In this document: one piece after another, positions 1,183-23,748 of the stretch | Position numbering within the stretch: position 1 is the first letter of the stretch | Layout of the letters: each line of letters opens with the position of its first letter | From: Actinotalea subterranea | GTDB taxonomy: Bacteria; Actinomycetota; Actinomycetes; Actinomycetales; Cellulomonadaceae | Reading direction: 5' to 3' | Assembly: GCF_008364845.1 (NCBI RefSeq) | Contig: NZ_VTTP01000003.1 | Coordinates: 310,001 to 374,000, forward strand | Length of the DNA stretch: 64,000 bases | Position numbers and translations under genes: made by a program | Notes under the pieces: model-generated | Seen by the model: only the letters and a program-made list of their open reading frames with translations | Told to the model about the DNA's origin: nothing | The model's database searches: none

Positions 1183-1209
1183 ACATCGGCACACCGCCGG
1201 GGGTGATGA
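1183..1209 (-). promoter_or_regulatory. predicted FliA (sigma-28) promoter of fliM-fliN
   Basis: On the minus strand, TCAT at 1209-1206, a 15-bp spacer and GCCGATGT at 1190-1183. The end of the -10 element is only 7 bases before the fliM GTG, so transcription would begin at or next to the start codon. An inverted repeat GGGTGAT (1201-1207) / ATCACCC (1245-1251) overlaps the -35 side. The rest of the 1176-1465 gap shows no convincing gene; a 64-codon Pro/Arg-rich frame there looks like non-coding GC-rich DNA. Confidence 0.6.
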
Positions 1210-1465
1210 GGCAAAGCCGGGAACCAGATGCGCGGGTGCGTGGAATCACCCGGATCGGCGCCGCGCGTCGCGGCGGGCCTGCCGGCCGTGGCATGCACGG
1301 TCCGGCTCCCCGGGCTCCTGGGACCCCGGGGCGAGGTGGCGCCCTCCATGGCGCCGTGAAAGACAACCGGCTTCCGTGCCGGTCTGCTGCGTCAGCGCAC
1401 CTCGGCCCGGGCGGGCCGCGTTCGGCCCTGCGGGTCGGTGCGCCGGGGACGACGTCCCCCAGTGG

Positions 1466-1996
1466 TCACTGGGTCACGTAGTCGGTCAGGTAGACGTCGA
1501 TCACCTCGCCCTCGTAGGCCTCCTCGAGCTGGTGGGCGAGCTCGGTCTTGAGGGCCTCGCGCCCCTCGGGGCTCGACACCTCCTCGACCGTGCGTCCCGA
1601 GAACAGGGCGATGGCCAGGTCGAGCGCGCGCGCGGCGTCGGGCTCCTCCGTGACCTCGGCCGTGAGCTGAAGGCCCATGCCCAGGCGCAGGTAGTGCCCG
1701 CCCGCGAGGTTGATGCTCACGGCCTCGATGACGAACACCTCGCCCTTCTCGGGCTCCGGCTCGGGCTCGGGGGCCGCCTCGGTCGCGGACGCGCCGGGGC
1801 CCATGAGGAACCAGTAGGCCGCGCCGCCGCCGAGGACGAGGACCACCGCCAGGACGATGATCATCAGCTTCTTCTTGGAGCCGCCGCCCTCGCCCTTGCC
1901 CTTCGACTCCGGCTCCGGCTCCGGGGCGCCCGACGTGGGCCTGGCGCCGATCTTCGGCTTGCTCGCGATCACGCGCTGCTCGGTCATGGCGGTCAT
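1466..1996 (-). CDS. fliL: flagellar basal body-associated protein FliL
   Basis: A 176-residue single-pass inner-membrane protein. A charged cytoplasmic N-terminus of about 45 residues is followed by a transmembrane helix (LMIIVLAVVLVLGGGAAYWF, about residues 44-63), an acidic Glu/Pro linker, and the FliL domain with a typical hydrophobic end (EVIDVYLTDYVTQ). FliL surrounds the stator and supports torque. The ATG at 1996 overlaps the motB stop (ATGA), so it is coupled to motB; a second ATG lies three codons in. It is last in the flbD-motA-motB-fliL group. Confidence 0.9.
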   Translation of the reverse strand: MTAMTEQRVIASKPKIGARPTSGAPEPEPESKGKGEGGGSKKKLMIIVLAVVLVLGGGAAYWFLMGPGASATEAAPEPEPEPEKGEVFVIEAVSINLAGGHYLRLGMGLQLTAEVTEEPDAARALDLAIALFSGRTVEEVSSPEGREALKTELAHQLEEAYEGEVIDVYLTDYVTQ

Positions 1997-2880
1997 CCCT
2001 GGTGTGCGTTCTCGATGGACGGGAGGAGGACGCGGGCGTCCTCGGAGATGCCGCTGAGGACCACGAGGTCCACGCGGCGGTTGGCCTCGAGCGGGTCGAC
2101 CCCGGGGTCGTCGATCGGGCGAGCCTCACCGAAGCCGACGGCCGCGACCCGGCCCGCGGGCAGGCCACCGACCTCGACCATGCGGCGCAGCACCTGCGTG
2201 GCGCGGTCCGAGGACAGCTCCCAGTTGGTGGGGTACCGGCTGCTGGGCAGCACGTTGGCGTGCCCCTCGATGGACACCTGGTCGGGCAGCCCGACCAGGA
2301 CCGGCGCCGTGGTGTCGAGCACCCTCAGCGCGGTCTCGGTGAGCGTGGCCGTGTCAGGGCTGAAGAACACGTCGTCCGCGACCATGCCGATGACGAGCCC
2401 GCGCTCGGTCACGCGGAACCGCACCCGGTCGCCCAGTCCCTGCGCGTTCAGCGCCTGGCTGATCTGGTCGCGGATCTGGGCGAGGCGGTCGTACTCGGCG
2501 GCGGCGAGCTGCATGGTGCGCTCCTCCTCGGTGATCTCCACCTCGGGGGTCTGCACCTGCTCGGTCTCGATGCCCGTCTCGCCGGCGAGGTCGGGGACGA
2601 TCTGGAAGTCCTCGACGCCGGAGAGCGCGCCCGTGCTGCCCTGGAGCATCGACGGGGCGCGGTGGCCGAACCCGGCGGCGAGGGACTCCCGCAGGGCCTC
2701 GAACTTCGCCTGGTCCACCTGGCTCATCGAGTACAGGACGATGAAGAGGCCGACGAGCACGGTCATCATGTCGGCGTAGCTCACGGCCCACCGCTCGTGG
2801 TTCTCGTGCTCCTCGTGGTGCTCGGCCTTCTTGCGACGCGGGCGCTGCCCGTGCCCGCCGGAGCCGTGGCCCGAGCTCAC
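1993..2880 (-). CDS. motB: flagellar motor stator protein MotB
   Basis: A 295-residue stator subunit. After a His/Glu-rich N-terminus comes WAVSYADMMTVLVGLFIVLY, the MotB transmembrane helix with the conserved proton-accepting Asp in YAD. The C-terminal half is an OmpA-like peptidoglycan-binding domain (VSIEGHANVLPSS, then SSDRATQVLRRMV and ANRRVDLVV). The GTG at 2880 overlaps the motA stop (GTGA). MotB anchors the MotA channel to the wall. The gene looks intact although its partner motA is frameshifted. Confidence 0.95.
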   Translation of the reverse strand: MSSGHGSGGHGQRPRRKKAEHHEEHENHERWAVSYADMMTVLVGLFIVLYSMSQVDQAKFEALRESLAAGFGHRAPSMLQGSTGALSGVEDFQIVPDLAGETGIETEQVQTPEVEITEEERTMQLAAAEYDRLAQIRDQISQALNAQGLGDRVRFRVTERGLVIGMVADDVFFSPDTATLTETALRVLDTTAPVLVGLPDQVSIEGHANVLPSSRYPTNWELSSDRATQVLRRMVEVGGLPAGRVAAVGFGEARPIDDPGVDPLEANRRVDLVVLSGISEDARVLLPSIENAHQG

Positions 2881-3666
2881 GCCGCCTCCTTCTTCGCGGC
2901 CTTGCCGTCCTTCTTGACGGCGTCGGGCGGCATGAGGCTGCGCAGCCGCTGGCCCACGAGGCGCGGGTTCGCGCCGGACTGGATCGCGAGGAGGCCCTCG
3001 ACCGCCATCTCCATGTGCGCGCACTCGAGCTCGGAGGCGCGGGTCACGCGTGCGCCGAGGGGCAGCCAGATGAGGTTCGCGGAGAGCAGGCCCCAGAGGG
3101 TCGCGACGAACGCGGCGGCGATCATGTGACCGAGCTCGGCCGGCTCCGCGAGGTTCTCGAGGACGTGCACGAGGGACACGACGGTGCCGATGATGCCGAT
3201 GGTCGGCGCGTACCCGCCCATGTTGTTGAAGTACTTCGCGGTGGTGCGGTCGAGCGCACGCTTGCTCGCGATCTTGTCCTCGAGCATCTCGCGGAGGTCG
3301 TCGGGGTCGGTGCCGTCGATCGCGGCCTGGAGGCCCGCGCGCAAGAACTCGTTGTCGACCGTCCGGGCCGCGTCCTCGAGCGAGAGGAGGCCCTCACGCC
3401 GGGCCCGGTCCGCGAGACCGACGACCACCTCGACCGTCGAGTCGAGGTCCGGCTGCTTGAAAGGTCATCCAGCGACCAAGGGTCCCGAAGGCGCGCTTGG
3501 CGTCGCGCAGCGTGCTGCTCGCGAGGCCCGCGCCGAGGGTTCCGCCGATCACCAGGATCATGGGCGCCGGCAGGATGACCGACATCGGGCTCGAGCCCTC
3601 GAGGAAGATCGAGAGGAGGACGGCCCCGAACGCCAGGGCCATCCCCGCCATGGTTGCCGGATCCAT
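2877..3666 (-). pseudogene. motA: flagellar motor stator protein MotA, interrupted by a one-base frameshift
   Basis: The N-terminal 69 residues (MDPATMAGMALAFG to GRWMTF) read from ATG 3666; the remaining 193 residues (KQPDLDSTVEVVVGLADRARR onward) lie in another frame. Both halves match MotA, including YAPTIGIIGTVVSLVHVL and the second-half membrane helices, and together give the usual 262 residues. The break is at A-run 3460-3462 (TTT on the coding strand): removing one base restores ACC TTC AAG CAG. Downstream codons still look constrained. It may be a sequencing error, a recent loss-of-function mutation, or a +1 recoding site (UUU C followed by a rare CAA). The ATG overlaps the flbD stop and the stop overlaps motB. 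Confidence 0.85.
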
Positions 3667-3971
3667 CAGTCGGCCTCCGGGACTGAGCTGAGGTTGCGGA
3701 CCGGCGCGGGGCGCAGCTCGGTCACGGCAGCCACGGTGGTGTCACCGGCGAGGGGGTCGCCGGCGCCGTCGGCGCTCAGCGCGAGGGTCGCGGCGGCGAC
3801 ACGCGCCCGGTACGCGACCACGAGCGCGGTGACCTCGTCGAGCGACTCGGCCACGATGTACTTGGTGCCGTCGATCAGGGTCAGGATCGTGTCCGGGGTG
3901 CTCTCGATGCGCTGGAGCAGGTCCGGGTTCACCGCGAAGCGCGGTCCGTTCAGACGCGTGACGACGATCAT
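3666..3971 (-). CDS. flbD: flagellar FlbD family protein
   Basis: A 101-residue protein starting MIVVTRLNGPRFAVNPDLLQRIES, which matches the small FlbD family found before motA in Gram-positive flagellar operons. The FlbD core covers about the first 60 residues (TPDTILTLIDGTKYIVAESLDEV); the last 40 are variable. ATG 3971 was chosen because FlbD proteins begin with MI-LTRLNG, although an upstream in-frame ATG exists. The molecular role is unclear. It is the first gene of flbD-motA-motB-fliL and has a sigma-28-type promoter about 50 bp upstream. Confidence 0.88.
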   Translation of the reverse strand: MIVVTRLNGPRFAVNPDLLQRIESTPDTILTLIDGTKYIVAESLDEVTALVVAYRARVAAATLALSADGAGDPLAGDTTVAAVTELRPAPVRNLSSVPEAD

Positions 3972-4024
3972 GGTGGTCCGTCCCTGGAGTTCCTTCGGGC
4001 CCATCCGTGAGCCCTGCCCCTACC

Positions 4025-4051
4025 TGATCGGCCGGGGTGGCGGCGGTGTGA
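4025..4051 (-). promoter_or_regulatory. predicted FliA (sigma-28) promoter of flbD-motA-motB-fliL
   Basis: On the minus strand TCAC (4051-4048), a 15-bp spacer and GCCGATCA (4032-4025). This is the same pattern as in front of flgB, flgN, fliC and others in this window. Transcription would start near 4018, about 45 bases before the flbD ATG. Confidence 0.65.
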
Positions 4052-4189
4052 GGCTTCGGCGCCGGTTCGGGTGGGTCCCGTGGCGTTCGGTGGCGACCTG
4101 CCGACGTGCGGCGCCGTGCGGCGACGTGCGGCGGTCGAGCGGGCCCGCGGGCGGGCCGGGGACGTCCAGCAGCCGGGGCCGTGGACGCG

Positions 4190-4238
4190 GCGAGCGTGCG
4201 ACCCCACGCCGGCGGGGCCGTGGGGGTCGCACGCTCGC
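4190..4238 (-). terminator. strong hairpin terminator after flgE
   Basis: The 19-nt arm at 4190-4208 pairs with 4219-4238 (one bulged G) around a short GC loop. It lies just after the flgE stop and before the flbD promoter, so it should separate the flgB-to-flgE operon from the motor operon. There is no U-tract, as is common in high-GC actinobacteria. Confidence 0.7.
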
Positions 4239-4250
4239 GGTGCGCCGGGG

Positions 4251-5441
4251 TCAGCGCTTGAGGTTCACGAGCTCCTGGAGCAGCTCGTCCGAGGTCGTGA
4301 TGACCCGGGAGTTCGCCTGGAAGCCACGCTGGGCGATGATCAGGTTGGTGAACTCGGCCGAGAGGTCGACGTTCGACATCTCGAGCGCGCCGCCCGTGAG
4401 GTCGCCGCGGCCGCCCGTGCCGGCCTCGCCGACCTGCGGGTCACCGGAGTTGACGGTCGTGCGGTACAACGAACCGCCCGCCTTCTCGAGGCCCGCGGGG
4501 TTGGTGAACGTCGCGAGCGAGACACGGCCGAGCGCCTGCTTGAGGCCGTTGCTGAACGAGCCGAGCAGCGTGCCGTCCGCGTTGATCGTGAACGACTGGA
4601 GCGTGCCGGCCGCGCGGCCGTTCTGCGACAGCGCCTCGACGGTGCTCAGGCCCGCGTACCCGGTGATCGTGCCGAGCTGCACGTCGACCACGCCGGCGTC
4701 GAGCACCGCGGGGGTCGTCGTGAGCTTGCCGTCCGCGCCGAACGCCAGGTTGAGGGACGTGCCGACGGGCGCGCCGTCCTGCGTGGCCGCGACGGTCCAG
4801 CCGGTGCCCGTCTTGGTGAACGCCAGCGAGAGCGAGTGCATGGTGCCGTCGGCGTCGTAGACGTCGACCTCACGGTTGAGGATGGTCGCCGGCGTGACGG
4901 TCGCGTCGGCGGGCAGGTTGCCCTCGAACGTGGCCGACGTCGTGCCCGCCGCGCCCATGAGCGTCGCGATGGGCAGGCGCATGTCCGTGAGCGTGCCGTT
5001 GGTGTCGATCGCGCCCGCGTCGTCGGCCGCCCAGCCCTGCACGAGGCCGCCGTCGGGCGTCACGAGCTGGCCCGTCGCGTCGAAGTCGAACGCCCCGGCC
5101 CGCGTGTAGAACTGCTCGGAGCCCTTGCGGACCATGAAGAAGCCGTCGCCGGAGATCATCATGTCCGTCGAGCGGTTGGTGAGCTGGGCGGCGCCCTGCT
5201 GGAAGTTCGTCGTGATGCCCGCGACGCGCACGCCGAGGCCGACCTGCGCGGGGTTCGTGCCGCCGACGCCGTCCTGGCCGCCGCCCGCGTTCGTCAGGAC
5301 CTGGGACAGCGTGTCCTGGAACTGGGACTGGGACGCCTTGAAACCCGTCGTGTTGACGTTGGCGATGTTGTTGCCGGTCACGTCGAGCATGGTCTGGTGG
5401 GCACGCAGACCGCTGATGCCGGAGAAGAGCGAGCGAAGCAT
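4251..5441 (-). CDS. flgE: flagellar hook protein FlgE
   Basis: A 396-residue axial protein of the hook. It has the N-terminal rod/hook signature LDVTGNNIANVNTTGFKAS near residue 20, an FlgE/F/G-type core (SGDGFFMVRKGSEQFYTRAGAF), a variable D2 region, and the conserved C-terminus LSAEFTNLIIAQRGFQANSR ending in ELVNLKR. The N-terminal MLRSLFSGISGLRAHQ is typical. It follows flgD by 32 bp and is the last gene before a strong hairpin. Subunits are exported by the type III apparatus and assembled by FlgD. Confidence 0.96.
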   Translation of the reverse strand: MLRSLFSGISGLRAHQTMLDVTGNNIANVNTTGFKASQSQFQDTLSQVLTNAGGGQDGVGGTNPAQVGLGVRVAGITTNFQQGAAQLTNRSTDMMISGDGFFMVRKGSEQFYTRAGAFDFDATGQLVTPDGGLVQGWAADDAGAIDTNGTLTDMRLPIATLMGAAGTTSATFEGNLPADATVTPATILNREVDVYDADGTMHSLSLAFTKTGTGWTVAATQDGAPVGTSLNLAFGADGKLTTTPAVLDAGVVDVQLGTITGYAGLSTVEALSQNGRAAGTLQSFTINADGTLLGSFSNGLKQALGRVSLATFTNPAGLEKAGGSLYRTTVNSGDPQVGEAGTGGRGDLTGGALEMSNVDLSAEFTNLIIAQRGFQANSRVITTSDELLQELVNLKR

Positions 5442-5473
5442 GGGAGTTTCCCTTCGGTGGTGTCGCGGCCTGG

Positions 5474-5980: not shown

Positions 5981-5989
5981 GGTTCCCTC

Positions 5990-7480
5990 TCAGACGATCA
6001 GGTCGAGGCCGGTGCGGCGCGAGCCAGCGTGGGTCGAGGTGCGGGTGCCGTCGCCGGCGAGGCCCGCGTCGGTCGGCGACTCGCGTGAGCCGCGGCCGTC
6101 GGAGCCCGTCGTCGAGCCGTCGGGGCTCGCGCCGGTCCCGTTGCCGCCCGGGCCGCCCGTCGCGGGACCCTGACCGCGGGCACCGTTCTGGCTGCCGGTG
6201 CCGAGGCCGAGCTCCGCGGGGAGCCCGGCCGCGACGAGGTCACGGCGCAGGTCGGGCAGCGCGGCGCGCAGGGCGTCACGTGCCTGGTCGGTCGCGCCGA
6301 GGAGCTCGATCCGCACACCCTCGGCGCCGATGTGCGCGACGACGCGGACCTGGCCGATCGCCTCGGGCTCGACCCGCATGACGAGCACGTGCTGGCCGGC
6401 GCCCGCACCGCGGAGGCCGACGAGGCGCGCGGCGAGCTGGTCGGCCACCTGGCGGGGCTCGGGAGCCGGGGCGGGAGCCGACGGTGCGGCGACCTCCGCG
6501 GCGGGTGCCGCGGACTGCGTCGGCCCGACGACCGCGACGTTCGCCGGTCCGGTCGGGGCGGTCGTCGTCGCGGTGGAGGTGGTCGGTGCCACGTCGGAGG
6601 CGAGCGCCGCGCGGGCGGCCGCAACCGCGGCGTCGGCGGGTGCCTGGGCCGTGGCCGCGGGGTCGGTGGTCGCCTCGGCGGCCGGTGCGGCCTGCGCACC
6701 GGACCGCGAGCCGTTCCCGGCCTGCGGGTCGCCACCGTCGGTGGTCGACGGCGCGAGCGCGGTCGGCGCGGTGGCGGTCCCGGTCGCGGTCGTGCCGGCC
6801 GCCGAGTCGGGGGTGCCAGGCGTCGCCGTGGCGGCGTCGGCGACCCCGCGCTGCGTGGGCACCCCGCCCTGGACGGCGGCGCCCGCGGCACCGGCGGCAC
6901 GACCAGCCGCCGCACGACGCCGCGCGTCGAGGTCGACGACGTCGGCGAGGGGTGCGTCGGCGCTCTCGACGGCGACGCCCTGGGCCGCCGCGGCCTCGTC
7001 CGCGGCGAGGGCCTGCCCGGCGGCGGCCACGAGCTGGCCGATCGTCAGGAGGACCGCGCCGACGTCGCCCGGGACGGGCTGGGCCGCACCGTCCGCCGGG
7101 GCCGTGGGGCCCGTGGCGGGCGCGGAGCCGGCGGCCGTGCCCGGTCCCGCCTGCGCGGTGTCGTCCTGGGCGCCGTGCTGGGACCGGTCGGTCGCGGTGT
7201 CCGTGCGCTCGCCGTCGGCCCGCCCGGCCGTCCGGTCGGTGCGGACCGGACGGTCCGTGCGCTCGGAACGCTCGGCGGAGCCGGTGCCGGCGTCGCGGCG
7301 GTCGGCGTCGCGCCGGCGGTCGGCGCGCTCGGCCCGCTCGGCCCGGTCGGCCTCGCGGCCCACCTTGTCCATGGTCGACGCGAAGTCGTCACCGCCGTTC
7401 CCGCGCGAGCCGGCCGACGTGCGGTCCGCACCGCGCGAACCGGACGGCGGAGGTGCGGGGAGCATGATGATCGTGGTCAT
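5990..7480 (-). CDS. fliK: flagellar hook-length control protein FliK
   Basis: A 496-residue protein. Residues 1 to about 370 are low-complexity Ala/Thr/Asp/Pro sequence with an Arg/Asp/Glu-rich stretch near residues 40-90, as usual for the FliK ruler. The C-terminal Flg_hook domain is recognisable (QHVLVMRVEPEAIGQVRVVAHI, then a Leu-rich RIELLGATDQARDAL). ATG 7480 overlaps the fliJ stop (ATGA). FliK measures hook length and switches export from hook to filament subunits. Identification relies on the C-terminal domain and position. Confidence 0.88.
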   Translation of the reverse strand: MTTIIMLPAPPPSGSRGADRTSAGSRGNGGDDFASTMDKVGREADRAERAERADRRRDADRRDAGTGSAERSERTDRPVRTDRTAGRADGERTDTATDRSQHGAQDDTAQAGPGTAAGSAPATGPTAPADGAAQPVPGDVGAVLLTIGQLVAAAGQALAADEAAAAQGVAVESADAPLADVVDLDARRRAAAGRAAGAAGAAVQGGVPTQRGVADAATATPGTPDSAAGTTATGTATAPTALAPSTTDGGDPQAGNGSRSGAQAAPAAEATTDPAATAQAPADAAVAAARAALASDVAPTTSTATTTAPTGPANVAVVGPTQSAAPAAEVAAPSAPAPAPEPRQVADQLAARLVGLRGAGAGQHVLVMRVEPEAIGQVRVVAHIGAEGVRIELLGATDQARDALRAALPDLRRDLVAAGLPAELGLGTGSQNGARGQGPATGGPGGNGTGASPDGSTTGSDGRGSRESPTDAGLAGDGTRTSTHAGSRRTGLDLIV

Positions 7481-12954: not shown

Positions 12955-13355
12955 CAGCTACGTCCGATCTGGAGTGCGGCCTGGTAGGTCTCCTTGGCGC
13001 GGTCGACGACCGCGGCGTTCGCCTGGTACCCGCGCTGGGCCATGATCAGCTGGGTCATCTGGCTGGACATGTCGATGTCCGGGTACTTCACGTAGCCGTC
13101 CGCGTCGGCCAGCGGGTGGTCGGGCTCGTAGACGAGCCGCCCCTCGGCGCTGCCGAACTCGACGCCCGCGACCTCGGCGCCGCCCTGGCCCCCGTAGTCA
13201 CGGGCCTGCGCGATGACGTAGCGCGCCTGGAAGGCGTCCTCGTCGGTCGACTTCACCGTGCTCATGTTCGAGAGGTTGTCGCTGATCGCGTCGAGCCAGG
13301 TGCGGTAGACGGTCATGCCGCTCCCGGCGACGCCGATGGCCCCGAAGATGCTCAT
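12954..13355 (-). CDS. flgC: flagellar basal-body rod protein FlgC
   Basis: A 133-residue proximal rod protein. The rod signature is near residue 22 (WLDAISDNLSNMSTVKS) and the C-terminal signature is DMSSQMTQLIMAQRGYQANA. The segment VYEPDHPLADADGYVKYPDI is diagnostic of FlgC. Translationally coupled to flgB and fliE by one-base overlaps. Confidence 0.96.
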   Translation of the reverse strand: MSIFGAIGVAGSGMTVYRTWLDAISDNLSNMSTVKSTDEDAFQARYVIAQARDYGGQGGAEVAGVEFGSAEGRLVYEPDHPLADADGYVKYPDIDMSSQMTQLIMAQRGYQANAAVVDRAKETYQAALQIGRS

Positions 13356-13696
13356 CAGCTCATCCTCATCGCGGTGCGGAGCTTGCTGAACGTGCCGTCG
13401 ACGGCCTGCGTCGCGAGCTGGTAGCGCAGGTTCGTCTCGACGTTGAGGAGGGTCTCCTCGTCGAGGTTCACGTTGTTGCCGTCCTCACGCGTCGCGGCGA
13501 GCGAGCGGGACGTGGCGGGTGTGGTGGCGCCGGTGCCGTCGGACACGGCCGCGGCGAGCGACTCCTCGAAGGAGACGCGCCCGGCGAGGAAGCCGGGGGT
13601 CTGGATGTTCGCGACGTTGTCGGCGATGACGCGCTGACGTAGCGCGAGACCGTCCAGAGCACTGTTGATCGCGACGAAGGACACGGAGTCGAACAC
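13355..13696 (-). CDS. flgB: flagellar basal-body rod protein FlgB
   Basis: A 113-residue proximal rod protein, first gene of the long hook-basal-body operon. The motif ALRQRVIADNVANIQTPGFLA near residue 18 and VETNLRYQLATQAVDGTFSK at the C-terminus identify FlgB. GTG 13696 was chosen because it begins VFDSVSFVAINSALDGLALR and has GGTGAGGTG about 8 bases upstream; the longer upstream frame is not FlgB-like. Confidence 0.93.
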   Translation of the reverse strand: MFDSVSFVAINSALDGLALRQRVIADNVANIQTPGFLAGRVSFEESLAAAVSDGTGATTPATSRSLAATREDGNNVNLDEETLLNVETNLRYQLATQAVDGTFSKLRTAMRMS

Positions 13697-13779
13697 GGCC
13701 GGATACACCTCACCCAGTCGAGGCCTAGCAATGCGGCCGATCCATGGCCTTCGGGGTGAGCGATCCCTGCTCGGCGTGC

Positions 13780-13806
13780 CCATCGGCCGGGGCCCTGGGC
13801 GTGTGA
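13780..13806 (-). promoter_or_regulatory. predicted FliA (sigma-28) promoter of the flgB-to-flgE operon
   Basis: On the minus strand TCAC (13806-13803), 15 bp, GCCGATGG (13787-13780). Both boxes are identical to those before flgN. The start of transcription would be near 13773, giving a leader of about 75 nt. Confidence 0.65.
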
Positions 13807-13843: not shown

Positions 13844-13859
13844 TCACCCGTACGGGTGA
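13844..13859. promoter_or_regulatory. perfect 16-bp palindrome upstream of the flgB promoter
   Basis: TCACCCGTACGGGTGA is a perfect palindrome 38 bp upstream of the -35 box of the flgB promoter and 17 bp beyond the end of the FliT-like gene. It could be an operator for a dimeric regulator or a short terminator stem; the sequence alone does not decide. Confidence 0.4.
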
Positions 13860-14211: not shown

Positions 14212-14214
14212 GGT

Positions 14215-14667: not shown

Positions 14668-14701
14668 CGCGTTCCCCAGGTGAGGTTCGGTCGGTGCGTG
14701 G

Positions 14702-16063: not shown

Positions 16064-16091
16064 GGGTGTCCTCCAGAGTCGGGAATGCCGA

Positions 16092-16129: not shown

Positions 16130-16140
16130 CGGATGTTGCG

Positions 16141-16194
16141 GGTACTGCTGGTGATACCGGTGCTGCTGGTGATACGGGTGCTGCAGGTCAAGCG
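16141..16194. repeat. three 18-bp tandem units between fliC and fliD
   Basis: Units at 16141-16158, 16159-16176 and 16177-16194. The first two match at 16 of 18 bases (GGTACTGCTGGTGATACC type) and the third is more diverged. They lie in the 3' untranslated part of the fliC transcript, beside the hairpin. Confidence 0.7.
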
Positions 16195-16221
16195 GCGGTC
16201 ACCTCGAGGGCGACCCCAGGC

Positions 16222-17409
16222 TCACTGGAGGAGCTGGAGCACGCTCTGCGGCAGCGACTTGGCCTGGGCGAGCATCGCGGTGCCGGCCTGGGACAGGATC
16301 TGCGCGCGGGTGAACGACACCATCTCCTCGGCCATGTCCGTGTCACGGATCCGGCTCTCCGACGCGGACAGGTTCTCCACGGCGACGTTGAGGTTGTTGA
16401 TGGTGTGGTCGAAGCGGTTCTGCACAGCACCGAGCTGCGAACGAACCGAGGAGACCTCGGTGATCGCGTCGTCGATGAGGTCGATCGCCTCGGTGGCGCC
16501 GCTGGCAGCGGCGAACGTGGGCGTCTTCGCAGCGAGCTGCTCGATCGTGTCGGTGCCCGAGAACGCCGGGCCCGAGATCGTCAGCACGCCGGTCGCGATG
16601 GCGGCCGAGCCGGTGCCGAGCGCGGCGTCGATCGCCGTGGTCAGCTTGGTGCCGCGAGCCGCGGCGTCCTCACCGGCCGTGTAGGTCACCGAGGAGAAGT
16701 CGAAGCTCTTGGAGCCGATGGTGACGGTGCCGTTGAGCTTCTCGAAGTTCGCCGCGGTGGCGAGGTCGGCGAACGCCGTCTCGGTCGCGATGGTGCCGAC
16801 GGCCGTGGTCGACGCGTTGGTGATCGTGACGTCCGAGACCTTCATGGCGTTGCTGGCCGTGGTGGTCACGTCGACACCGGAGATCCCGAGGCCCGAGGCG
16901 CTCATCGCACCCGTGCTGTTGAGGTCGACCGTGATCTTGTCCTGGGCGGAGGTGTTGGCCCCGACCTGGAACGTGCCGCTGTAGTTGCCGTCGAGCAGCT
17001 TCGCGCCGTTGAACTGCGTGGTGTCGGCGATGCGGGTCAGCTCGGTCTTGAGCTGGTCCATCTCGTCCTGGATGTTCGTCTTCGCCTCGGAGGAGAGACT
17101 GCCCTCGTTGGACGCCTGGACGGCCAGGGTGCGCATGCGCTGGAGGATCGAGTGCGTCTCGGTCAGCGCGCCTTCAGCGGTCTGGACGACGCTGATGCCG
17201 TCCTGGGCGTTGCGGACAGCCTGCTTGGTGCCACCGATCTGGGCGCGGAGGCCCTCGGAGATGGCCAGACCGGCCGCGTCGTCCGCCGCACGGTTGATCC
17301 GCAGACCGGACGACAGCTTCTCCAGCGAGGAGTTGAGGTCGTTCTGCGTGTTGGACAGGTTGCGGTACGAGTTCATCGCCGCGATGTTGGTGTTGATCGA
17401 GAGACCCAT
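16222..17409 (-). CDS. fliC: flagellin FliC
   Basis: A 395-residue filament subunit. The N-terminal flagellin domain begins MGLSINTNIAAMNSYRNLS and has LEKLSSGLRINRAADDAAGL near residue 30. The C-terminal domain has ISEVSSVRSQLGAVQNRFDH and ends with LPQSVLQLLQ. The central variable region is of moderate size (about residues 140-300), rich in Thr/Ala, and could be a glycosylation target. ATG 17409 has AAGGAGGA upstream. It has its own sigma-28-type promoter and a downstream hairpin, so it is probably a monocistronic, highly expressed gene. Confidence 0.97.
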   Translation of the reverse strand: MGLSINTNIAAMNSYRNLSNTQNDLNSSLEKLSSGLRINRAADDAAGLAISEGLRAQIGGTKQAVRNAQDGISVVQTAEGALTETHSILQRMRTLAVQASNEGSLSSEAKTNIQDEMDQLKTELTRIADTTQFNGAKLLDGNYSGTFQVGANTSAQDKITVDLNSTGAMSASGLGISGVDVTTTASNAMKVSDVTITNASTTAVGTIATETAFADLATAANFEKLNGTVTIGSKSFDFSSVTYTAGEDAAARGTKLTTAIDAALGTGSAAIATGVLTISGPAFSGTDTIEQLAAKTPTFAAASGATEAIDLIDDAITEVSSVRSQLGAVQNRFDHTINNLNVAVENLSASESRIRDTDMAEEMVSFTRAQILSQAGTAMLAQAKSLPQSVLQLLQ

Positions 17410-17468
17410 GGGGAACTCCTCCTTGATTCGGGTCGGAACTGCCGCCCCTCCATGGGCGAGCACTTGTC

Positions 17469-17495
17469 TGATCGGTCGGCGCCCCCGGACCTTGA
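17469..17495 (-). promoter_or_regulatory. predicted FliA (sigma-28) promoter of fliC
   Basis: On the minus strand TCAA (17495-17492), 15 bp, ACCGATCA (17476-17469). Start of transcription near 17462, giving a leader of about 53 nt with a strong ribosome binding site. Confidence 0.65.
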
Positions 17496-17527
17496 GCGTT
17501 TTCCGGAGAACTTTCTTGCGACGTCCG

Positions 17528-19102
17528 TCAGCCGTCGGCCGCGGGCGTCACGAGGCCGGGGGCGAGCACGTCGAGCTCGGCGAGCAGCGCGGCCTCCTCG
17601 GCGGCCGGGACGAGGGCGAGCGCGGCCTCGAGGCCCGCGAGCGCACGCTCGTCGCCGTAGACGCTGAACGCCAGCGCGCCCGCGAGCGCCCGGCCCCGCG
17701 CGTCGACGCGCTCGTCGAGGGCGATCCGCACGAGCGGGCACTGCTCGGCCGCCCCGTACCTGCGGAGCTCGATCGCCCAGGCTGCGGCCTCCTCGAGCGG
17801 GAAGGCGAGCGCTGCGGTCGCGACGGCACCGAGCACGGTCGGGTCGCCGGGCCGCGCGTCGTGCATCCACCGCAGGAAGGTGCGCGCGTCGGCGTCGGGC
17901 TCCATGAGGCACGCGGTCACGTACTCGCGCCACAGCGCGTCGCCGAGCACCTCGATCACGCGCGTCGTGCGCTCGCGCCCGAGCAGGCTCACCAGGCCGC
18001 CGGGTGCGCCGGGCGCGACGCCCTTGCGGGCGGCGGCGACCGCGACCTGGGTAGCCTGCCGGCCGCGGCCGAGCGTCGCGAGGGCCCAGACCTCGATCCG
18101 CACGTAGCTGATCCGGTCGAGCCGCTCGCCCTCTCCGTTGAGCGTCGTGGTGGGCATGGCCTCGAGCGCGGCGAGCGCGACGTCGGCCTGACCCCGCTCG
18201 GCGGCGACCCGCGCACGCGCGGCACGGGCGAACGCCGGGTTGTCGTCCGACTGCTCCCACAGGTCGAGCCAGCGGTCCGTCGCCTCGGCGTCGCCGAGGA
18301 GGTGCGTGACCCCGACCATCGAGGTCGCGAGCAGGCGAGCCCGGCGCGGCAGGCTGAGTCCCGCGGAGCGCAGCTCTTCGCCGAGGGCGGCGGCCTCCAC
18401 GAAGCGGCCCGCGGCGGCGAGCGACCGGGCGAGCTGGATCCGTGAGCTCTCGAGCTCCTCCGCGGGCACGCCCGCGCGTCGGCCCGCCTCGATCTCCGCC
18501 TCGGCGAGGGCGACGTTGCGCTCCCCCTTGGCCTTCCCCTGGCGCACCTCGGTGGCGTAGCCGGTGTGGCGCAGCACGACGTCGGGCAGGGGGACGAGGT
18601 GCGCCGGCACGGGTGCGTCGACGCGCCGGGTGAGCTGCTCGTGCAGGCTCCCGGTCCACACGTGGACGTCGCGCCGGAAGACACGGTGCACCGAGACGCG
18701 CGCGCTGACCGAACGGGTCGGCGGAGCGAGCGGGAGCGTCGCGGCCTCGTCGACGTTGTGCTGGATGACGGAGTGCGCCGTCGCGCCGTCGCGGCCCAGG
18801 TTCTTGCGGAGCTGCGCGGGTACGCCCTCGAACACCTCGTCGGCGTCGATGGACAGCACCCAGTCCGCCGTCACGTGCTCGAGCGCACGGTTGCGCGCGG
18901 CCCCGAAGTCGTCGTCCCAGTAGCCCTCGACGACGCGGTCCGTGAACTGCCGCGCGACGTCGCGCGTGGTGTCCGTGGAGCCGGTGTCGTAGACCACGAC
19001 CTCGTCGGCCCACTGCACGGACGCGAGGCACTGCGCGAGGACGGCCTCCTCGTCCTTGACGATCAGGACGGCGGCGACGGTCGGCGTGCGCCTGGTCGAC
19101 AT
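17528..19102 (-). CDS. family 2 glycosyltransferase, probable flagellin glycosyltransferase
   Basis: A 524-residue protein with an N-terminal GT-A domain: VAAVLIVKDEEAVLAQCLAS at residues 9-28, then VYDTGSTDTT and LSIDADEVF, whose DAD is the metal and sugar-nucleotide binding motif. The C-terminal 280 residues are Ala/Arg/Leu-rich helical repeats of TPR type. It lies between fliA and fliC and has its own sigma-28-type promoter, so flagellin or another filament protein is the likely acceptor. The sugar is unknown. The start ATG 19102 has GAGGGGG upstream. Confidence 0.82.
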   Translation of the reverse strand: MSTRRTPTVAAVLIVKDEEAVLAQCLASVQWADEVVVYDTGSTDTTRDVARQFTDRVVEGYWDDDFGAARNRALEHVTADWVLSIDADEVFEGVPAQLRKNLGRDGATAHSVIQHNVDEAATLPLAPPTRSVSARVSVHRVFRRDVHVWTGSLHEQLTRRVDAPVPAHLVPLPDVVLRHTGYATEVRQGKAKGERNVALAEAEIEAGRRAGVPAEELESSRIQLARSLAAAGRFVEAAALGEELRSAGLSLPRRARLLATSMVGVTHLLGDAEATDRWLDLWEQSDDNPAFARAARARVAAERGQADVALAALEAMPTTTLNGEGERLDRISYVRIEVWALATLGRGRQATQVAVAAARKGVAPGAPGGLVSLLGRERTTRVIEVLGDALWREYVTACLMEPDADARTFLRWMHDARPGDPTVLGAVATAALAFPLEEAAAWAIELRRYGAAEQCPLVRIALDERVDARGRALAGALAFSVYGDERALAGLEAALALVPAAEEAALLAELDVLAPGLVTPAADG

Positions 19103-19147
19103 GGATCCCCCTCGTTACCCGGGCGCGCAGACGCGCGCACGCGGGTC

Positions 19148-19174
19148 ACATCGGCAGGACGGGTCGAGCGGTGA
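19148..19174 (-). promoter_or_regulatory. predicted FliA (sigma-28) promoter of the glycosyltransferase gene
   Basis: On the minus strand TCAC (19174-19171), 15 bp, GCCGATGT (19155-19148). It begins 5 bp after the fliA stop codon; the leader would be about 38 nt. Confidence 0.65.
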
Positions 19175-19178
19175 GGGG

Positions 19179-20060
19179 TCAGACCGCCCACTCGAGGCCG
19201 CCGCCGACCAGCTCGGCGTCGTCGTGCGTCCCCGGCCGCTGCTGCGGGACGGCCGCTGCCGTGCTCGCGTGGGCGCCGGCCGCGGCGCGTGCCGCGACGC
19301 TGGCGAAGTAGGCGCGGCGGCGACGCTCGGCGACACCGTCGGGGCGGTCGGCGGTCTGCACGAGCTCGGGGTCGAGGCTCGCGTTCATGCCGTCGCGCAG
19401 GAGGCCGAGGGCCTCGGTGCGGAGCTGGCTGATGCGGGACTGGGTGACGCCCATCTCGGCGGCGAGCTCGACGACCGGACGGTCGTGGAAGAAGAGCTGC
19501 TCGACGACGTGGCGCATGCGCTCGGGCAGGCTCTCGACGCCGGCGCGCAGGTACTGCAGGCGCTCGCCCACGAGGAGGCTCTCCTCCGGGCCCATGCCCG
19601 CGGAGACCACGGTGTCGGCGATCGAGCCGTCGAAGGCCTCGATGGACAGGACGCGCACGTCGGCGTCGCCGCGGGCGGCGTCGATCTCGTCGACACCCAT
19701 GCCCGTGGCCTCGGCGAGCTCGCTGCGCGAGGGCACGCGGCCCAGGGCGCCGGTCAGCTCGTCGGCGACCTCGGTCAGCTGGCGGGCCCGGCGGCGGGCG
19801 CCGCGGGAGACCCAGTCCATGCCGCGGAGCTCGTCGATGAGAGCACCCTTGATGCGCAGCGACGCGTAGCGGGCGAACGGGACGCCCGTCTCGGCGTCGT
19901 ACGCCCGGGCCGCCTTGACGAGCGCGAGCGACCCGGCGGAGGCCAGGTCGGAGCGCGAGACGTAGGACGGCACGCGGGACAGCATCGCGTTGACGTGGTA
20001 GCCGACGAGCGGGAGGTGCTCGACGACCAGCGCGTTCGTGGAGTGCTCTGTTGCGGTCAC
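19179..20060 (-). CDS. fliA: flagellar RNA polymerase sigma factor FliA (sigma-28/WhiG family)
   Basis: A 293-residue sigma-70 family factor with region 2 (SRSDLASAGSLALVKAARAY, FARYASLRIKGALIDELRGM), region 3 (SRSELAEATGMGVDEIDAAR) and region 4 (LFFHDRPVVELAAEMGVTQSRISQLRTEAL). The RIKGALIDELR-DW pattern is typical of FliA/WhiG. The C-terminal 60 residues are an extra low-complexity tail. Start GTG 20060 follows a sigma-28-like promoter by 8 bases, so the transcript may be leaderless and the gene autoregulated. No flgM anti-sigma gene is visible in the window. Confidence 0.95.
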   Translation of the reverse strand: MTATEHSTNALVVEHLPLVGYHVNAMLSRVPSYVSRSDLASAGSLALVKAARAYDAETGVPFARYASLRIKGALIDELRGMDWVSRGARRRARQLTEVADELTGALGRVPSRSELAEATGMGVDEIDAARGDADVRVLSIEAFDGSIADTVVSAGMGPEESLLVGERLQYLRAGVESLPERMRHVVEQLFFHDRPVVELAAEMGVTQSRISQLRTEALGLLRDGMNASLDPELVQTADRPDGVAERRRRAYFASVAARAAAGAHASTAAAVPQQRPGTHDDAELVGGGLEWAV

Positions 20061-20068
20061 AAGAAGGG

Positions 20069-20096
20069 CTTTCGGAGCCCGTGGCGGATGACTTGA
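20069..20096 (-). promoter_or_regulatory. predicted autoregulatory sigma-28 promoter of fliA
   Basis: On the minus strand TCAA (20096-20093), 16 bp, TCCGAAAG (20076-20069). The match is weaker than the others (CCGA core, one-base longer spacer). The -10 ends 8 bases before the GTG start codon. Confidence 0.45.
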
Positions 20097-20224
20097 GCGG
20101 GCCGAGCGGGTGAAAGGATGTGGTACCGGCGCGTCGCTGCACGGCGGGCCCCTCCCGGCGGTACGAGTTGCGCAGTTGCGTCCGATTCACATCCGGTGAA
20201 CACGTGCCAACTCGGACATCCTCC

Positions 20225-20240
20225 TGTGATCTACGTCACA
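20225..20240. promoter_or_regulatory. perfect Crp/GlxR-type operator between fliA and flgN
   Basis: TGTGATCTACGTCACA matches TGTGA-N6-TCACA and the actinobacterial GlxR form TGTGANNTANNTCACA at every fixed position. It lies in the 315-bp divergent region 20061-20375. A second perfect inverted repeat, TTCAC-N5-GTGAA, is at 20186-20200. The rest of the gap holds the two sigma-28-type promoters and no gene. Confidence 0.65.
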
Positions 20241-20297
20241 TTCAGATCAAGAAGCCGCAGGTCAGGGGCCTCCCCGGAACTTCGTGCCAGGGATCGG

Positions 20298-20324
20298 TCA
20301 CAATGACGAGGCGCCTGCCGATGG
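20298..20324 (+). promoter_or_regulatory. predicted FliA (sigma-28) promoter of flgN-flgK-flgL-fliW
   Basis: TCAC (20298-20301), 15 bp, GCCGATGG (20317-20324). Boxes and spacing are identical to the flgB promoter. The leader would be about 45 nt. Confidence 0.65.
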
Positions 20325-20375
20325 GCTGGGCTGGAACGCGCGAACGCAGATACCTAGACCCAAGGGGACGTCACG

Positions 20376-20855
20376 ATGGGTTTGAACGAGCTCTCCGGGG
20401 TGCTCTGGCACGAACGCCAGCTCCTCGAGCTCCTGCTCTTCAAGCTGGAGGAGGAGCAGCTGATCCTCTCCAGCGGACGCACCCAGTGGCTCGGCCACGC
20501 GACGCGTGAGGTCGAGACCGTCCTCGACCAGATCCGCGGCGCCGAGCTGGGCCGCTCCATGGAGGCCGACGAGGCCGCCCGTGAGCTCCGGATCTCCAGC
20601 GGCGCCAGCCTCCTCGAGCTCGCGAAGCACGCGCCCGCACCCTGGGACGAGCTGCTCACCGAGCACCACGCGGCGTTCGTCTCCCTCACCGACCAGATCA
20701 ACGGCCTCGCCGAGAGCAACCGCGACCTGCTCGCGACCTCGCACCGGGCCACCCAGGAGACCCTCATGAGCCTGCAGGAGAGCGTGCAGACGTACGACCC
20801 GCGCGGCGGTGCCGCGTCGGCGTCGGGCAGCATGCTCCTCGACCAGGCCCTGTGA
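20376..20855 (+). CDS. flgN: flagellar protein FlgN (FlgK/FlgL chaperone)
   Basis: A 159-residue helical protein. The start LNELSGVLWHERQLLELLLFKLEEEQLIL is typical of FlgN (long N-terminal helix with WxER-LLxxLxFKLxxE). It keeps hook-filament junction proteins soluble before export. It lies 7 bp before flgK. The ATG at 20376 follows AAGGGGA. Confidence 0.9.
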   Translation: MGLNELSGVLWHERQLLELLLFKLEEEQLILSSGRTQWLGHATREVETVLDQIRGAELGRSMEADEAARELRISSGASLLELAKHAPAPWDELLTEHHAAFVSLTDQINGLAESNRDLLATSHRATQETLMSLQESVQTYDPRGGAASASGSMLLDQAL

Positions 20856-20862
20856 GGGACGC

Positions 20863-22281
20863 ATGAGCACCTTCTCCGGACTGAGCGGCGCCCTGTCGTC
20901 CCTCATCGCGCAGCGCCAGGCCCTCGAGGTCTCCGGCCAGAACGTCGCGAACGCCAAGACCGCCGGCTACACCCGCCAGCGCGCCGACATGACGTCGGTC
21001 CAGGCGCTCACGACGCCGTCGATGTTCTCCGCGGCGAACGGCGCCGGCAACGGCGTCCGGGTCAGCGGCATCACGCGCATGGGCGACGTGTTCCTCGACG
21101 CGCGCCTGCGCACCGAGACGTCCGCGGCGTCCTTCCAGGCCGCGCAGGCCAAGTCGCTCGACCGGCTCGAGACGCTCGTCACCGAGCCCTCCGACACCGG
21201 GATCACCGCGCAGCTCCAGACCTTCTGGTCCGGCTGGCAGGACGTCGGCAACGACCCCGACGACCCGGCCGCGCGGCAGACCCTCATCGGCAACGCCAAG
21301 GCGCTCATCAGCCAGATCGCGAGCGGCTACCGGGGCGTCGAGACGCAGTGGGCGCAGGCCCGCACCGAGGCCCAGTCGATCGTCACGCAGGTCAACACGA
21401 CCGCGACGGCCGTCGCCGACCTCAACGAGCAGATCCGCGCGATCCAGGTCTCCGGCGGCTCGGCCAACGAGCTCGTGGACCAGCGCAGCCTCCTCGTGAC
21501 CCAGCTCTCCTCGCTCGTCGGCGCCTCCGCCCGTGAGCGTGAGGACGGGACGATCGACGTCATGGTGGCCGGCAACGCGCTCGTCCGCGGCGTCAAGGCG
21601 ACCGCGGTCCAGCTCTCCGGCCCCAGCTCGATGGCCGAGCTCGTCGCGACGCCCTCGGTGCCCGTGTCGCTCTCCTGGGGCACGACCCCGCCCACGCCGC
21701 TGTCGCTCCAGGGCGGCACGCTCGCGAGCCACATCTCGGTCCTCAGCCCCACGGGCTCGCTCATGAGCGCGGCCGACTCCTTCAACGACCTCGCGACGTC
21801 CCTCGAGACGTCCGTCAACGCGGTCCACCAGACCGGGACGACCCTCACCGGGGCCACGGGTGTCGACTTCTTCGTCGTCAACCCGGACGCGAGCCTGCCC
21901 AAGGCGCTGCGGCTCTCGACCATCAGCGACCCGGCCCAGGTGGCCGCCGCGGACGGCACCAAGGGAACCCTCGACGGGTCCATCGCCGACAAGGTGTCCC
22001 AGATCGTCAGCAAGGCCGGCGGACCGGACTCCGTGTGGCGCAGCTTCGTCGTCGACCTCGGCGTCCAGACGCAGGCCGCGACCCAGCGCGCCAAGGTCAC
22101 CGAGGTCGCCCGGGCGACCGCCGAGAACCTTCAACTCTCCCAGGCGAGTGTCGATCTGGATGAGGAGTCGGTGAACATGCTCGCCTACCAGCGGGCCTAC
22201 GAGGGCGCAGCACGTGTCCTGACCGCCATCGACGAGATGCTCGACGTGCTCATCAACCGCACCGGCGTGGTGGGGAGGTAA
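20863..22281 (+). CDS. flgK: flagellar hook-associated protein FlgK (HAP1)
   Basis: A 472-residue hook-filament junction protein. The N-terminal rod/hook signature is EVSGQNVANAKTAGYTRQRA near residue 25; the C-terminal end has SVDLDEESVNMLAYQRAYEG and ends in LDVLINRTGVVGR. The middle contains the FlgK helical domain (LQTFWSGWQDVGNDPDDPAA). ATG 20863 was chosen because it begins MSTFSGLSGALS and has GAGGGA upstream. Confidence 0.96.
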   Translation: MSTFSGLSGALSSLIAQRQALEVSGQNVANAKTAGYTRQRADMTSVQALTTPSMFSAANGAGNGVRVSGITRMGDVFLDARLRTETSAASFQAAQAKSLDRLETLVTEPSDTGITAQLQTFWSGWQDVGNDPDDPAARQTLIGNAKALISQIASGYRGVETQWAQARTEAQSIVTQVNTTATAVADLNEQIRAIQVSGGSANELVDQRSLLVTQLSSLVGASAREREDGTIDVMVAGNALVRGVKATAVQLSGPSSMAELVATPSVPVSLSWGTTPPTPLSLQGGTLASHISVLSPTGSLMSAADSFNDLATSLETSVNAVHQTGTTLTGATGVDFFVVNPDASLPKALRLSTISDPAQVAAADGTKGTLDGSIADKVSQIVSKAGGPDSVWRSFVVDLGVQTQAATQRAKVTEVARATAENLQLSQASVDLDEESVNMLAYQRAYEGAARVLTAIDEMLDVLINRTGVVGR

Positions 22282-22284
22282 CCC

Positions 22285-23223
22285 GTGATCAACCGCGTGA
22301 CCCACCAGACGGTCCAGCGCTCGACCCTGGCCAACCTGCAGCTCAACCTCAGCAAGATGGCCGACCTGCAGTCGCGGATGTCCGGCGGCAAGATCATCAC
22401 CAAGCCGTCCGACGACCCCGCCGGCACCGCCCAGGCGATGGCCCTGCGCACCGAGAAGCGCGCCGCGGAGCAGTTCACGCGCAACGCGGACAACGGTGCG
22501 ACGTGGCTCAACACGATCGACACGGCGCTGTCGTCGTCGACGGCGCTGCTGCTCAAGGCCCGCAACCTCACCGTCCAGGGTGCCAACTCCGGCGCCATGG
22601 GCCCGGCCGCCCGCGAGGCGATCGCCAAGGAGCTCGACGGCCTGCGTGACGCGCTGCTCGACCAGGCGAACACCGACCTGCTCGGCCGCTCCGTCTTCGC
22701 CGGCACGTCGAACGCCGGGGTCGCCTACACCGTGACCCCCGCCGTGCCCGAGCAGCCCGGCCCGCCCGTGGTCCCCGCCGTCCCCGCGCAGTACACGTGG
22801 ACGGGCTCGGCCAACGGGAGCGTCGAGCGTCGCCTCGCCCAGGACACCACGGTCCGCGTCGACGCCGACGGCAAGGCCGCGTTCGGCGACGGCGCCACCT
22901 CGGTGTTCGCGCTCATCGACACGATCGCCGCGGACCTGCGCGCCGGCACCGACGTCAGCGTCCACCTCGACACGATCGACGCGCGTCGCGACGCGATGCT
23001 CGGCGAAGCCGCCTCCGTCGGCACCCGGTACAACCAGATCGCGACCGCGAAGTCCAACCTCTCGAGCGACGTGCTCGCCCTCAAGACGCAGCTCTCCGCG
23101 GTCGAGGACATCGACCTCGCCGCGATCATCGTCGAGATCCAGGCCCAGGAGGTCGCCTACAAGGGCGCCCTCGGAGCCACCGCACGTGTCCTGCAGCCGA
23201 CCCTGATGGACTTCCTCCGATGA
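22285..23223 (+). CDS. flgL: flagellar hook-associated protein FlgL (HAP3)
   Basis: A 312-residue junction protein with a flagellin-like N-terminus (MINRVTHQTVQRSTLANLQL, then SGGKIITKPSDDPAGTAQAM) and a flagellin-like C-terminus (SAVEDIDLAAIIVEIQAQEV ending MDFLR). The central region is Ala/Pro-rich (residues 150-180). GTG 22285 is 3 bp after the flgK stop with GGGGAGG upstream; the stop overlaps fliW. Confidence 0.95.
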   Translation: MINRVTHQTVQRSTLANLQLNLSKMADLQSRMSGGKIITKPSDDPAGTAQAMALRTEKRAAEQFTRNADNGATWLNTIDTALSSSTALLLKARNLTVQGANSGAMGPAAREAIAKELDGLRDALLDQANTDLLGRSVFAGTSNAGVAYTVTPAVPEQPGPPVVPAVPAQYTWTGSANGSVERRLAQDTTVRVDADGKAAFGDGATSVFALIDTIAADLRAGTDVSVHLDTIDARRDAMLGEAASVGTRYNQIATAKSNLSSDVLALKTQLSAVEDIDLAAIIVEIQAQEVAYKGALGATARVLQPTLMDFLR

Positions 23224-23657
23224 GCGTGATGGTGGCCGACGGGCCGGCCGAGACCCACGACGTCCACGACGTCCTCGAGTTCCTCAGCCCGCCCCCGGGC
23301 CTGCGGGACCTGCGCCGCTTCACCCTCACCGCGCTCGACGAGCTCGGTCTGCTGTTCGCCCTGCGCGCCGTCGACGAGCCCGAGACGCGGCTCTTCCTCG
23401 TGCCGCCGCGCATCTACTTCCCCGACTACGAGCCGCACCTGGACCCGAGCGTCCGCGCGGACCTCGAGGTCGCCGACGGCGCGGACACCGTGCTCCTCGT
23501 CGTCGTGCACCCCGGCCAGGACGGCCGCCCGCCGACGGCGAACCTGCTCGCACCCGTCGTCGTCGACCCCGCCTCCGGGCGCGCCGTTCAGGTCGTGCTC
23601 GACGGCGACGAGTGGCCGCTGCGCGCACCCCTGTCCGCCGAGGGCTCCGCGGCCTGA
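23220..23657 (+). CDS. fliW: flagellar assembly factor FliW
   Basis: A 145-residue protein. FliW features are LEFLSPPPGLRDLRRFTLTA (the FxxPLxGLxxxxxF element), then RLFLVPPRIYFPDYEPHLDP and TANLLAPVVVDPASGRAVQV. FliW normally binds CsrA and relieves repression of flagellin mRNA, and also binds flagellin. It overlaps flgL by 4 bp. csrA, which often follows, is not next to it here. Confidence 0.92.
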   Translation: MSVMVADGPAETHDVHDVLEFLSPPPGLRDLRRFTLTALDELGLLFALRAVDEPETRLFLVPPRIYFPDYEPHLDPSVRADLEVADGADTVLLVVVHPGQDGRPPTANLLAPVVVDPASGRAVQVVLDGDEWPLRAPLSAEGSAA

Positions 23658-23721
23658 GCCGCAGCCGGCGGCCCGGCGCGGGTGAACTCGCCCGTCCACG
23701 CGTTCCCGCGTGCCGAAACGG

Positions 23722-23748
23722 TCATGCGGGGCGCCGTTCCGCCGATGG
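23722..23748 (+). promoter_or_regulatory. predicted FliA (sigma-28) promoter of the EAL-like/HDOD gene
   Basis: TCAT (23722-23725), 15 bp, GCCGATGG (23741-23748). The -10 box is identical to that of flgB and flgN. The gene start is 32 bp downstream. Confidence 0.6.

Follow-up and report, generated by a model that had tools for sequence, protein, structure and literature searches.

Flagellar sigma-28 promoters have a spacer of 15 bp between their two boxes. In the available part of PMC8325347, the consensus of the flagellar sigma-28 factors (FliA/SigD) is given as TAAA and GCCGATAA, and WhiG promoters of Streptomyces and Rubrobacter were searched for with TAAA, allowing up to two mismatches overall. 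Here, a set of related boxes is described from the flagellar locus of Actinotalea subterranea, in a stretch of 64 kb (the window, G000:C22:310001-374000; 73% GC) of a genome of 4.03 Mb. These boxes are very probably -35 and -10 elements of the sigma-28 family, most likely read by the FliA encoded in the locus, which would switch on flagellar units and chemotaxis genes as one tier.

The boxes resemble FliA/SigD promoters in the -10 core GCCGAT, the 15-bp spacer and the flagellar and chemotaxis targets, but differ from them in that the -35 box is TCA[C/T], GCCGAT is not followed by a fixed AA, early basal-body genes are included and FlgM (PF04316) was not found in the genus. With the WhiG promoters of Streptomyces and Rubrobacter they share the sigma clade, the -10 core and genes for enzymes of cyclic di-GMP (c-di-GMP) as targets, whereas the targets named in that part of PMC8325347 belong to sporulation or type IV pili, and those found here to flagella and chemotaxis. 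Actinobacterial flagellar genes under WhiG-like flagellar sigma factors are also described for Actinoplanes missouriensis, although this organism is a sporangium former with three FliA factors (available parts of PMC8325347 and PMC13293333). With respect to messenger leaders, the closest described system is that of Campylobacter jejuni, in which CsrA binds ANGGA loops in the flagellin leader (available part of PMC4894983).

Promoter boxes of the flagellar units and their recurrence

Gene starts and units were taken from codon-model gene calls plus protein family scans, which gave eight transcription units in the flagellar region (Table 1). The sequence TCA[C/T/A]-N15-[G/A]CCGAT heads seven of them. 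All eight boxes that the first-pass annotation had placed at unit heads were read back at their positions; the exact form TCAY-N15-GCCGAT is present in six units, not in five as had been counted there. The GCCGAT core of the -10 box is exact at 6/8 boxes, with ACCGAT at fliC and CCGAA at fliA. The TAAA of sigma-28 flagellar promoters is missing from the -35 box, where TCA stands in its place, and the spacer is of 15-16 bp, N15 being predominant in relatives and 16 bp being found at fliA.

The recurrence of the boxes was followed in those relatives whose gene start was aligned. TCA-N15-RCCGAT was found in 22/29 relatives at fliM, 11/14 at flgB, 16/24 at fliC and 18/33 at flgN; at these genes, each of the other spacings between 10 and 20 was seen in 0 to 4 loci. 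At flbD, 14/17 relatives have the box if a single -10 mismatch is allowed (13 exact GCCGAT, one GCCGAA), and in the remaining three a box with a spacer of 14 was recognised by eye. TAA forms were detected at fliM in 4/29 relatives, all from other genera of the family or from other families. In 20-kb flagellar loci of 19 Cellulomonadaceae, TCA stood at 15 (plus one) before 53 of 391 RCCGAT sequences and TAA only once; in those of seven members of the Georgenia group, the figures were 26/186 and none. Among 409 RCCGAT sequences in 12 loci of the Actinoplanes group, TCA was seen at N15 nine times, at N16 six times and at N14 and N17 twice each; it was rarer than GC-rich triplets, and therefore the presence of the box there is not demonstrated. 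A local origin of the TCA variant, as first annotated, was rejected because relatives carry the box: it is found frequently in flagellar loci of both the Cellulomonadaceae and the Georgenia group. From these alignments, the TCA box is lineage-wide, not local.

In the window, TCA-N16-GCCGAT has nine matches, compared to a mean of 0.52 in 100 shuffles (maximum 3); six of the nine are unit heads and three (13313, 33567, 41252) lie within genes. The possibility that a GC-rich genome yields TCA-N15-GCCGAT often enough by chance was weighed at the genome scale, where TCAY-N15-GCCGAT has 75 matches and the other spacers pooled have 97 for N10-14 (N10 20, N11 6, N12 50, N13 15, N14 6) and 86 for N16-20 (N16 17, N17 10, N18 42, N19 9, N20 8). 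As N12 and N18 are in the same codon phase as N15, the excess was taken over their mean of 46; it amounts to about 29 of the 75 matches, the remainder being probably chance. Even with some 46 matches expected from same-phase spacings, chance is contradicted by the recurrence at orthologues, the specificity of the spacing and the enrichment at gene heads, and as an explanation of the boxes it is close to negligible.

The enrichment was seen in 842 kb of the organism's own sequence, in which 23/40 matches with N15 lay at gene heads compared to 7/53 for other spacings of 10-21 (Fisher 1.2e-5), the N15 count being inflated because this sample was partly picked around earlier motif matches. At the 30 head sites in this sequence (TCA, N15, [G/A]CCGAT), a C precedes the box in 24, and the fourth base of the -35 is C in 18, T in nine and A in three; TAA-N15-RCCGAT occurs once, antisense within a gene. 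The genome scan proposed with the first-pass annotation, for which equal frequency inside genes was the counter-case, had a divided outcome: the bare motif is unspecific, and the gene-head position, at which N15 is enriched, is what separates likely sites.

Outside the window, 23 genes headed by the box were seen, of which 19 were scanned for families. Twelve of these encode CheA, CheB, six methyl-accepting chemotaxis proteins (MCPs), two GGDEF proteins, one GGDEF-EAL protein and a binding protein whose gene overlaps that of an MCP; the other seven are two possible peptidoglycan hydrolases (VanY, M23) and five others. The box is present at 7/14 MCP genes of the genome (p = 6e-7), 39-57 nt before the called start, with GCCGAT in five, ACCGAT in one and GTCGAT in one, and one further MCP gene lies behind the boxed binding-protein gene, giving 8/14 if counted. 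In two further genomes of the genus, 7/11 MCP genes (6/8 and 1/3) are boxed when one -10 mismatch is tolerated, compared to a background at the same leniency of 30/709 called genes with a box 20-130 nt upstream, a set that includes the flagellar and MCP genes. The chemotaxis and MCP genes that the first annotator had suggested looking for were thus found in the scan. The boxes before the VanY-type and M23 peptidase genes lie at G000:C22:276724 and C11:224104, and it is possible that their products act as wall hydrolases for the passage of the flagellum.

Candidate sigma factors

The FliA of the locus has the sigma-70 regions 2, 3 and 4 (PF04542, PF04539, PF04545) and has matches to PDB chains of FliA and WhiG across regions 2 to 4, although with 159.3 bits it falls below the cut-off of 189.6 of NCBIfam TIGR02479. 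Its homologues, ordered by named relative, come first from Actinotalea and then from Cellulomonas, Georgenia, Demequina and Actinoplanes. In 59 genomes searched, own included, FliM was found in 37 and WhiG (threshold E 1e-30) also in 37, with both in 31; the locus FliA was present in 36 of the 37 FliM genomes. FlgM (PF04316) was found in 0/19 genomes of the genus compared to 3/14 control genomes, a negative that a diverged anti-sigma factor could escape.

Several findings weigh against the proposal that FliA reads these boxes as promoters of one tier. The bare motif is frequent within genes, which makes any single site weak evidence; the glycosyltransferase box is poorly kept, the six relatives with the gene having GCCGAT (one), GTCGAT (four) or none (one); and the box of the HDOD gene was not found in the two relatives with the gene start aligned. 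Half of the MCP genes are without a box, which speaks against a simple rule, and in G006 only 1/3 MCPs have it. No residue of the FliA region-4 recognition helix was found to separate TCA from TAA lineages, and the search for FlgM covers PF04316 only, RsiG-type anti-sigma factors not having been searched for. Three genomes fit poorly: G047 (89% complete) has a TCA box at fliM with neither sigma gene found, and among the genomes lacking WhiG, G035 has its TCA box at flbD and none at fliM, and the fliM box of G032 is of a TAAG form. Finally, a second, canonical FliA/WhiG factor is encoded at G000:C11:33164-34054 (272.2 bits on TIGR02479), and the presence of WhiG tracks that of FliM (31/37 genomes with FliM and 6/22 without it; Fisher 2e-5).

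The neighbours of this second factor are the genes for ribosomal protein S2, EF-Ts, a tyrosine recombinase and DprA, which is the place of whiG in Streptomyces, and it scores 334.5 bits with PDB chain 6pfj_A, annotated as a sigma factor and presumably a Streptomyces WhiG. This WhiG orthologue, as a canonical member of the family, might mainly or also read the boxes, FliA being confined to part of them or to the variant at fliA. We consider this unlikely on balance, as WhiG is absent from six of the 37 FliM genomes and, of the five of these that were examined for the box, G021 (TCA box at fliM and flbD) and G035 have TCA-N15-GCCGAT boxes. Another of the five, G048, has no box at fliM. Because FliA is present in 36/37 FliM genomes and boxes occur in the WhiG-less G021 and G035, the locus FliA is favoured as the putative reader, the WhiG orthologue being a serious alternative. 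Three genomes, G003, G012 and G016, have the locus FliA and WhiG with no match to FliM; two are highly fragmented and G016 is in 6 contigs.

Control of fliA, transcript starts and leader hairpins

The fliA gene appeared at first to lack a conserved box, as a pattern requiring GCCGA/ACCGA missed it, and the alignment showed TCAAG...CCGAA instead. This box is present in 15/19 Actinotalea and Cellulomonas loci besides the window and in 0/8 of the Georgenia group; the box that the first annotator had described as weaker is thus there, although as a distinct variant and not as a mere weak copy. It ends 10 nt before the homology-extrapolated start in the window and in 8/15 relatives, and 4 to 19 nt before it in the others. 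A TTCACCC element lies just upstream of it (window 20071-20130, minus strand) and is shared by a large part of the sequences aligned for the genus.

Between fliA and flgN, a CRP-like palindrome with at most one mismatch was found in 27/35 loci, window included (16 exact), compared to a mean of 0.18 and a maximum of 3 in 300 mononucleotide shuffles; it is present in 19/19 Actinotalea and Cellulomonas loci and in 7/8 of the Georgenia group. In Actinotalea and Cellulomonas, its centre lies 147-191 nt from the fliA start and 52 to 111 nt from the flgN box where this was found. As the distance to fliA is the steadier one, the palindrome more likely serves fliA than flgN. That fliA needs another starter, and that CRP-like and other conserved elements lie upstream of it, would agree with a scheme in which the early units have housekeeping promoters too, the box merely boosting them, and a two-tier hierarchy stays. 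In the upstream alignments of flgB and fliM, however, no other conserved block was seen by eye over the 75-85 nt preceding the box, and we regard this scheme as rather unlikely. A perfect palindrome, TCACCCGTACGGGTGA, lies upstream of the flgB box (window 13844-13859); as a regulator site it was rejected, being unconserved in 10 aligned relatives.

The fliM box ends 9-10 nt before the GTG in 15 aligned sequences (those, among 30 loci, with a match starting at residue 1), and conservation begins at the GTG; in one locus, L097, the box lies 27 nt before the extrapolated start. With the box so near, transcription would therefore start at or near the start codon, and the fliM mRNA is predicted to be leaderless; the position of its box implies that the fliA mRNA may be so too. 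The same spacing bears on the idea that the two half-sites form the binding site of an activator and not a -35/-10 pair. Such a site would be compatible with the sequence alone, but the fliM start codons follow the box by 9-10 nt in those 15 sequences and GCCGATAA is the published -10 of flagellar sigma factors (available part of PMC8325347), so that this idea is very improbable.

Hairpins of the CsrA type, with GGA in the loop, were found in the leaders of flbD, flgB and fliC, those of flgB and fliC being strongly conserved. The fliC leader has an additional GGA within its Shine-Dalgarno sequence, and genes for both CsrA and its partner FliW are present, fliW in the window and csrA in 35/59 genomes. 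Twin hairpins, placed after fliL and before the box of fliM, recur in 13/28 relatives with both genes (10/15 within the genus); four further relatives have one of the two, and the others a different hairpin or none. Given its position upstream of the fliM promoter, the twin element is probably part of the flbD-fliL mRNA, at its 3' end. The support from covariation is modest. The flgB stems are kept and near-invariant, with no covariation (L032 omitted from 21 leaders; L037 had no flgB core by the pattern used). The fliC stem has two double-change pairs, or three with the outer pairs, the latter number standing out less from shuffles, 26-33 of 500 of which reach it (L032, L035 and L038 omitted from 24 leaders). 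For the twin hairpins, two double changes were seen, a number reached by 12/500 (L082 omitted from 13 elements).

In 842 kb of sequence centred on flagellar and MCP genes, 26 ANGGAN hairpins with stems of at least 5 were counted, nine of them intergenic and seven of these by flagellar or MCP genes. Such hairpins were also seen upstream of two box-less MCP genes (G000:C22:293491-293606, C4:97663-97680). No Rfam match was obtained in window positions 1-26000 at E up to 1. The arrangement is like the CsrA-FliW system of Campylobacter jejuni in having ANGGA loops in the flagellin leader together with FliW and CsrA (available part of PMC4894983), but here the leaders of flbD and flgB and the region behind fliL have hairpins as well, and binding is predicted: by analogy, CsrA would bind these leader hairpins.

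Gene units and implications for flagellar assembly

Table 1. Positions of the boxes, genes, units and leader elements in the window (strand + or -)
Feature	Position	Strand	Description
fliM box	1185-1209	-	TCAT-N15-GCCGAT; ends 9 nt before GTG 1175
flbD box	4027-4051	-	TCAC-N15-GCCGAT
flgB box	13782-13806	-	TCAC-N15-GCCGAT
fliC box	17471-17495	-	TCAA-N15-ACCGAT
Glycosyltransferase box	19150-19174	-	TCAC-N15-GCCGAT
fliA variant box	20071-20096	-	TCAAG-N15-TCCGAA (spacer 16 after TCAA); 10 nt before GTG
flgN box	20298-20322	+	TCAC-N15-GCCGAT
HDOD gene box	23722-23746	+	TCAT-N15-GCCGAT
CRP-like palindrome	20225-20240	-	TGTGA-N6-TCACA; centre 172 nt before fliA, between fliA and flgN
Twin hairpins	1338-1382	-	ANGGAN, CsrA-type; between fliL and fliM box
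flbD leader hairpin	3997-4014	-	GGGCTC-ACGGAT-GGGCCC; ANGGAN hairpin in 16/17 relatives
flgB leader hairpins	13735-13772	-	Two GGA-loop hairpins (13758-13772 and 13735-13749), CsrA-type
fliC leader hairpin	17443-17458	-	Core GCCC-ATGGAG-GGGC, CsrA-type
fliM	243..1175	-	Conserved GTG start at 1175
flbD	3666..3971	-	PF06289; start set at 3971, not 4004
flgB	13355..13696	-	GTG start 13696 per gene call
fliC	16222..17409	-	
Glycosyltransferase gene	17528..19102	-	PF00535; heads a unit
fliA	19179..20060	-	Divergent sigma-28 family factor; PF04542, PF04539, PF04545; heads a unit
flgN	20376..20855	+	PF05130
fliW	23220..23657	+	PF02623
HDOD-domain gene	23781..25205	+	PF08668; heads a unit
fliM unit		-	Run headed by fliM, continuing beyond window edge
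flbD unit		-	flbD-motA-motB-fliL
flgB unit		-	flgB through flgE, single run with genes for basal body, export and hook
fliC unit		-	fliC-fliD-fliS
flgN unit		+	flgN-flgK-flgL-fliW

The fliM run was scanned for families beyond the window at csrA and at one 463-aa protein, which had no family match. The csrA gene (C22:302010-302165) is at the end of this run after a gap of 130 nt, and would be a member of the fliM operon. In the flgB run, no family match was obtained for the gene at 5990-7480, which is fliK by position alone. The motA gene is in two frames (window 2877-3666, minus strand), 3394-3666 giving a sub-cut-off match to MotA_N and 2877-3428 the remainder, either through a sequencing error or a real frameshift.

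In the mechanism proposed, the -35 of the lineage would have shifted from TAAA to TCA[C/T], usually after a C, with a 15-bp spacer and GCCGAT as the -10. RNA polymerase with the locus FliA would activate the flagellar units, among them those with early basal-body and export genes, and the same tier would also cover chemotaxis and some c-di-GMP genes, with no FlgM (PF04316) found in the genus to restrain the late genes. The fliA gene would be fed by its own variant promoter (TCAAG, spacer 16, CCGAA), a CRP-family regulator being the probable input, and CsrA, sequestered by FliW, would probably tune flbD, flgB and fliC via the GGA-loop hairpins of their leaders. Promoter activity, sigma identity, operon limits and the binding of CRP and CsrA are in all cases predicted from sequence. 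The first-pass placement of almost the whole locus under sigma-28, with the early basal-body genes, gains support from the recurrence at orthologues, the fixed spacing and the chemotaxis boxes. More tentatively, and with less than even confidence, the flagellated Cellulomonadaceae may have a flat sigma-28 (TCA) regulon for flagellum and chemotaxis without FlgM, in which the assembly order is set after transcription, and not by a transcriptional cascade, through CsrA-FliW action on the hairpins of the flbD, flgB and fliC leaders and on the twin element behind fliL, and the leaderless fliM and fliA mRNAs escape.

A literature search by titles and abstract openings found no description of this promoter in Cellulomonadaceae. 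Building and steering the flagellum are apparently switched on jointly by one dedicated transcription factor, and the boxes provide a testable regulon map for flagellated actinobacteria, with a lineage-specific -35 and reaching from the early basal body to the receptors. This poses the question of how the assembly order is kept without FlgM or a class II tier, for which the CsrA-FliW hairpins are a concrete candidate.

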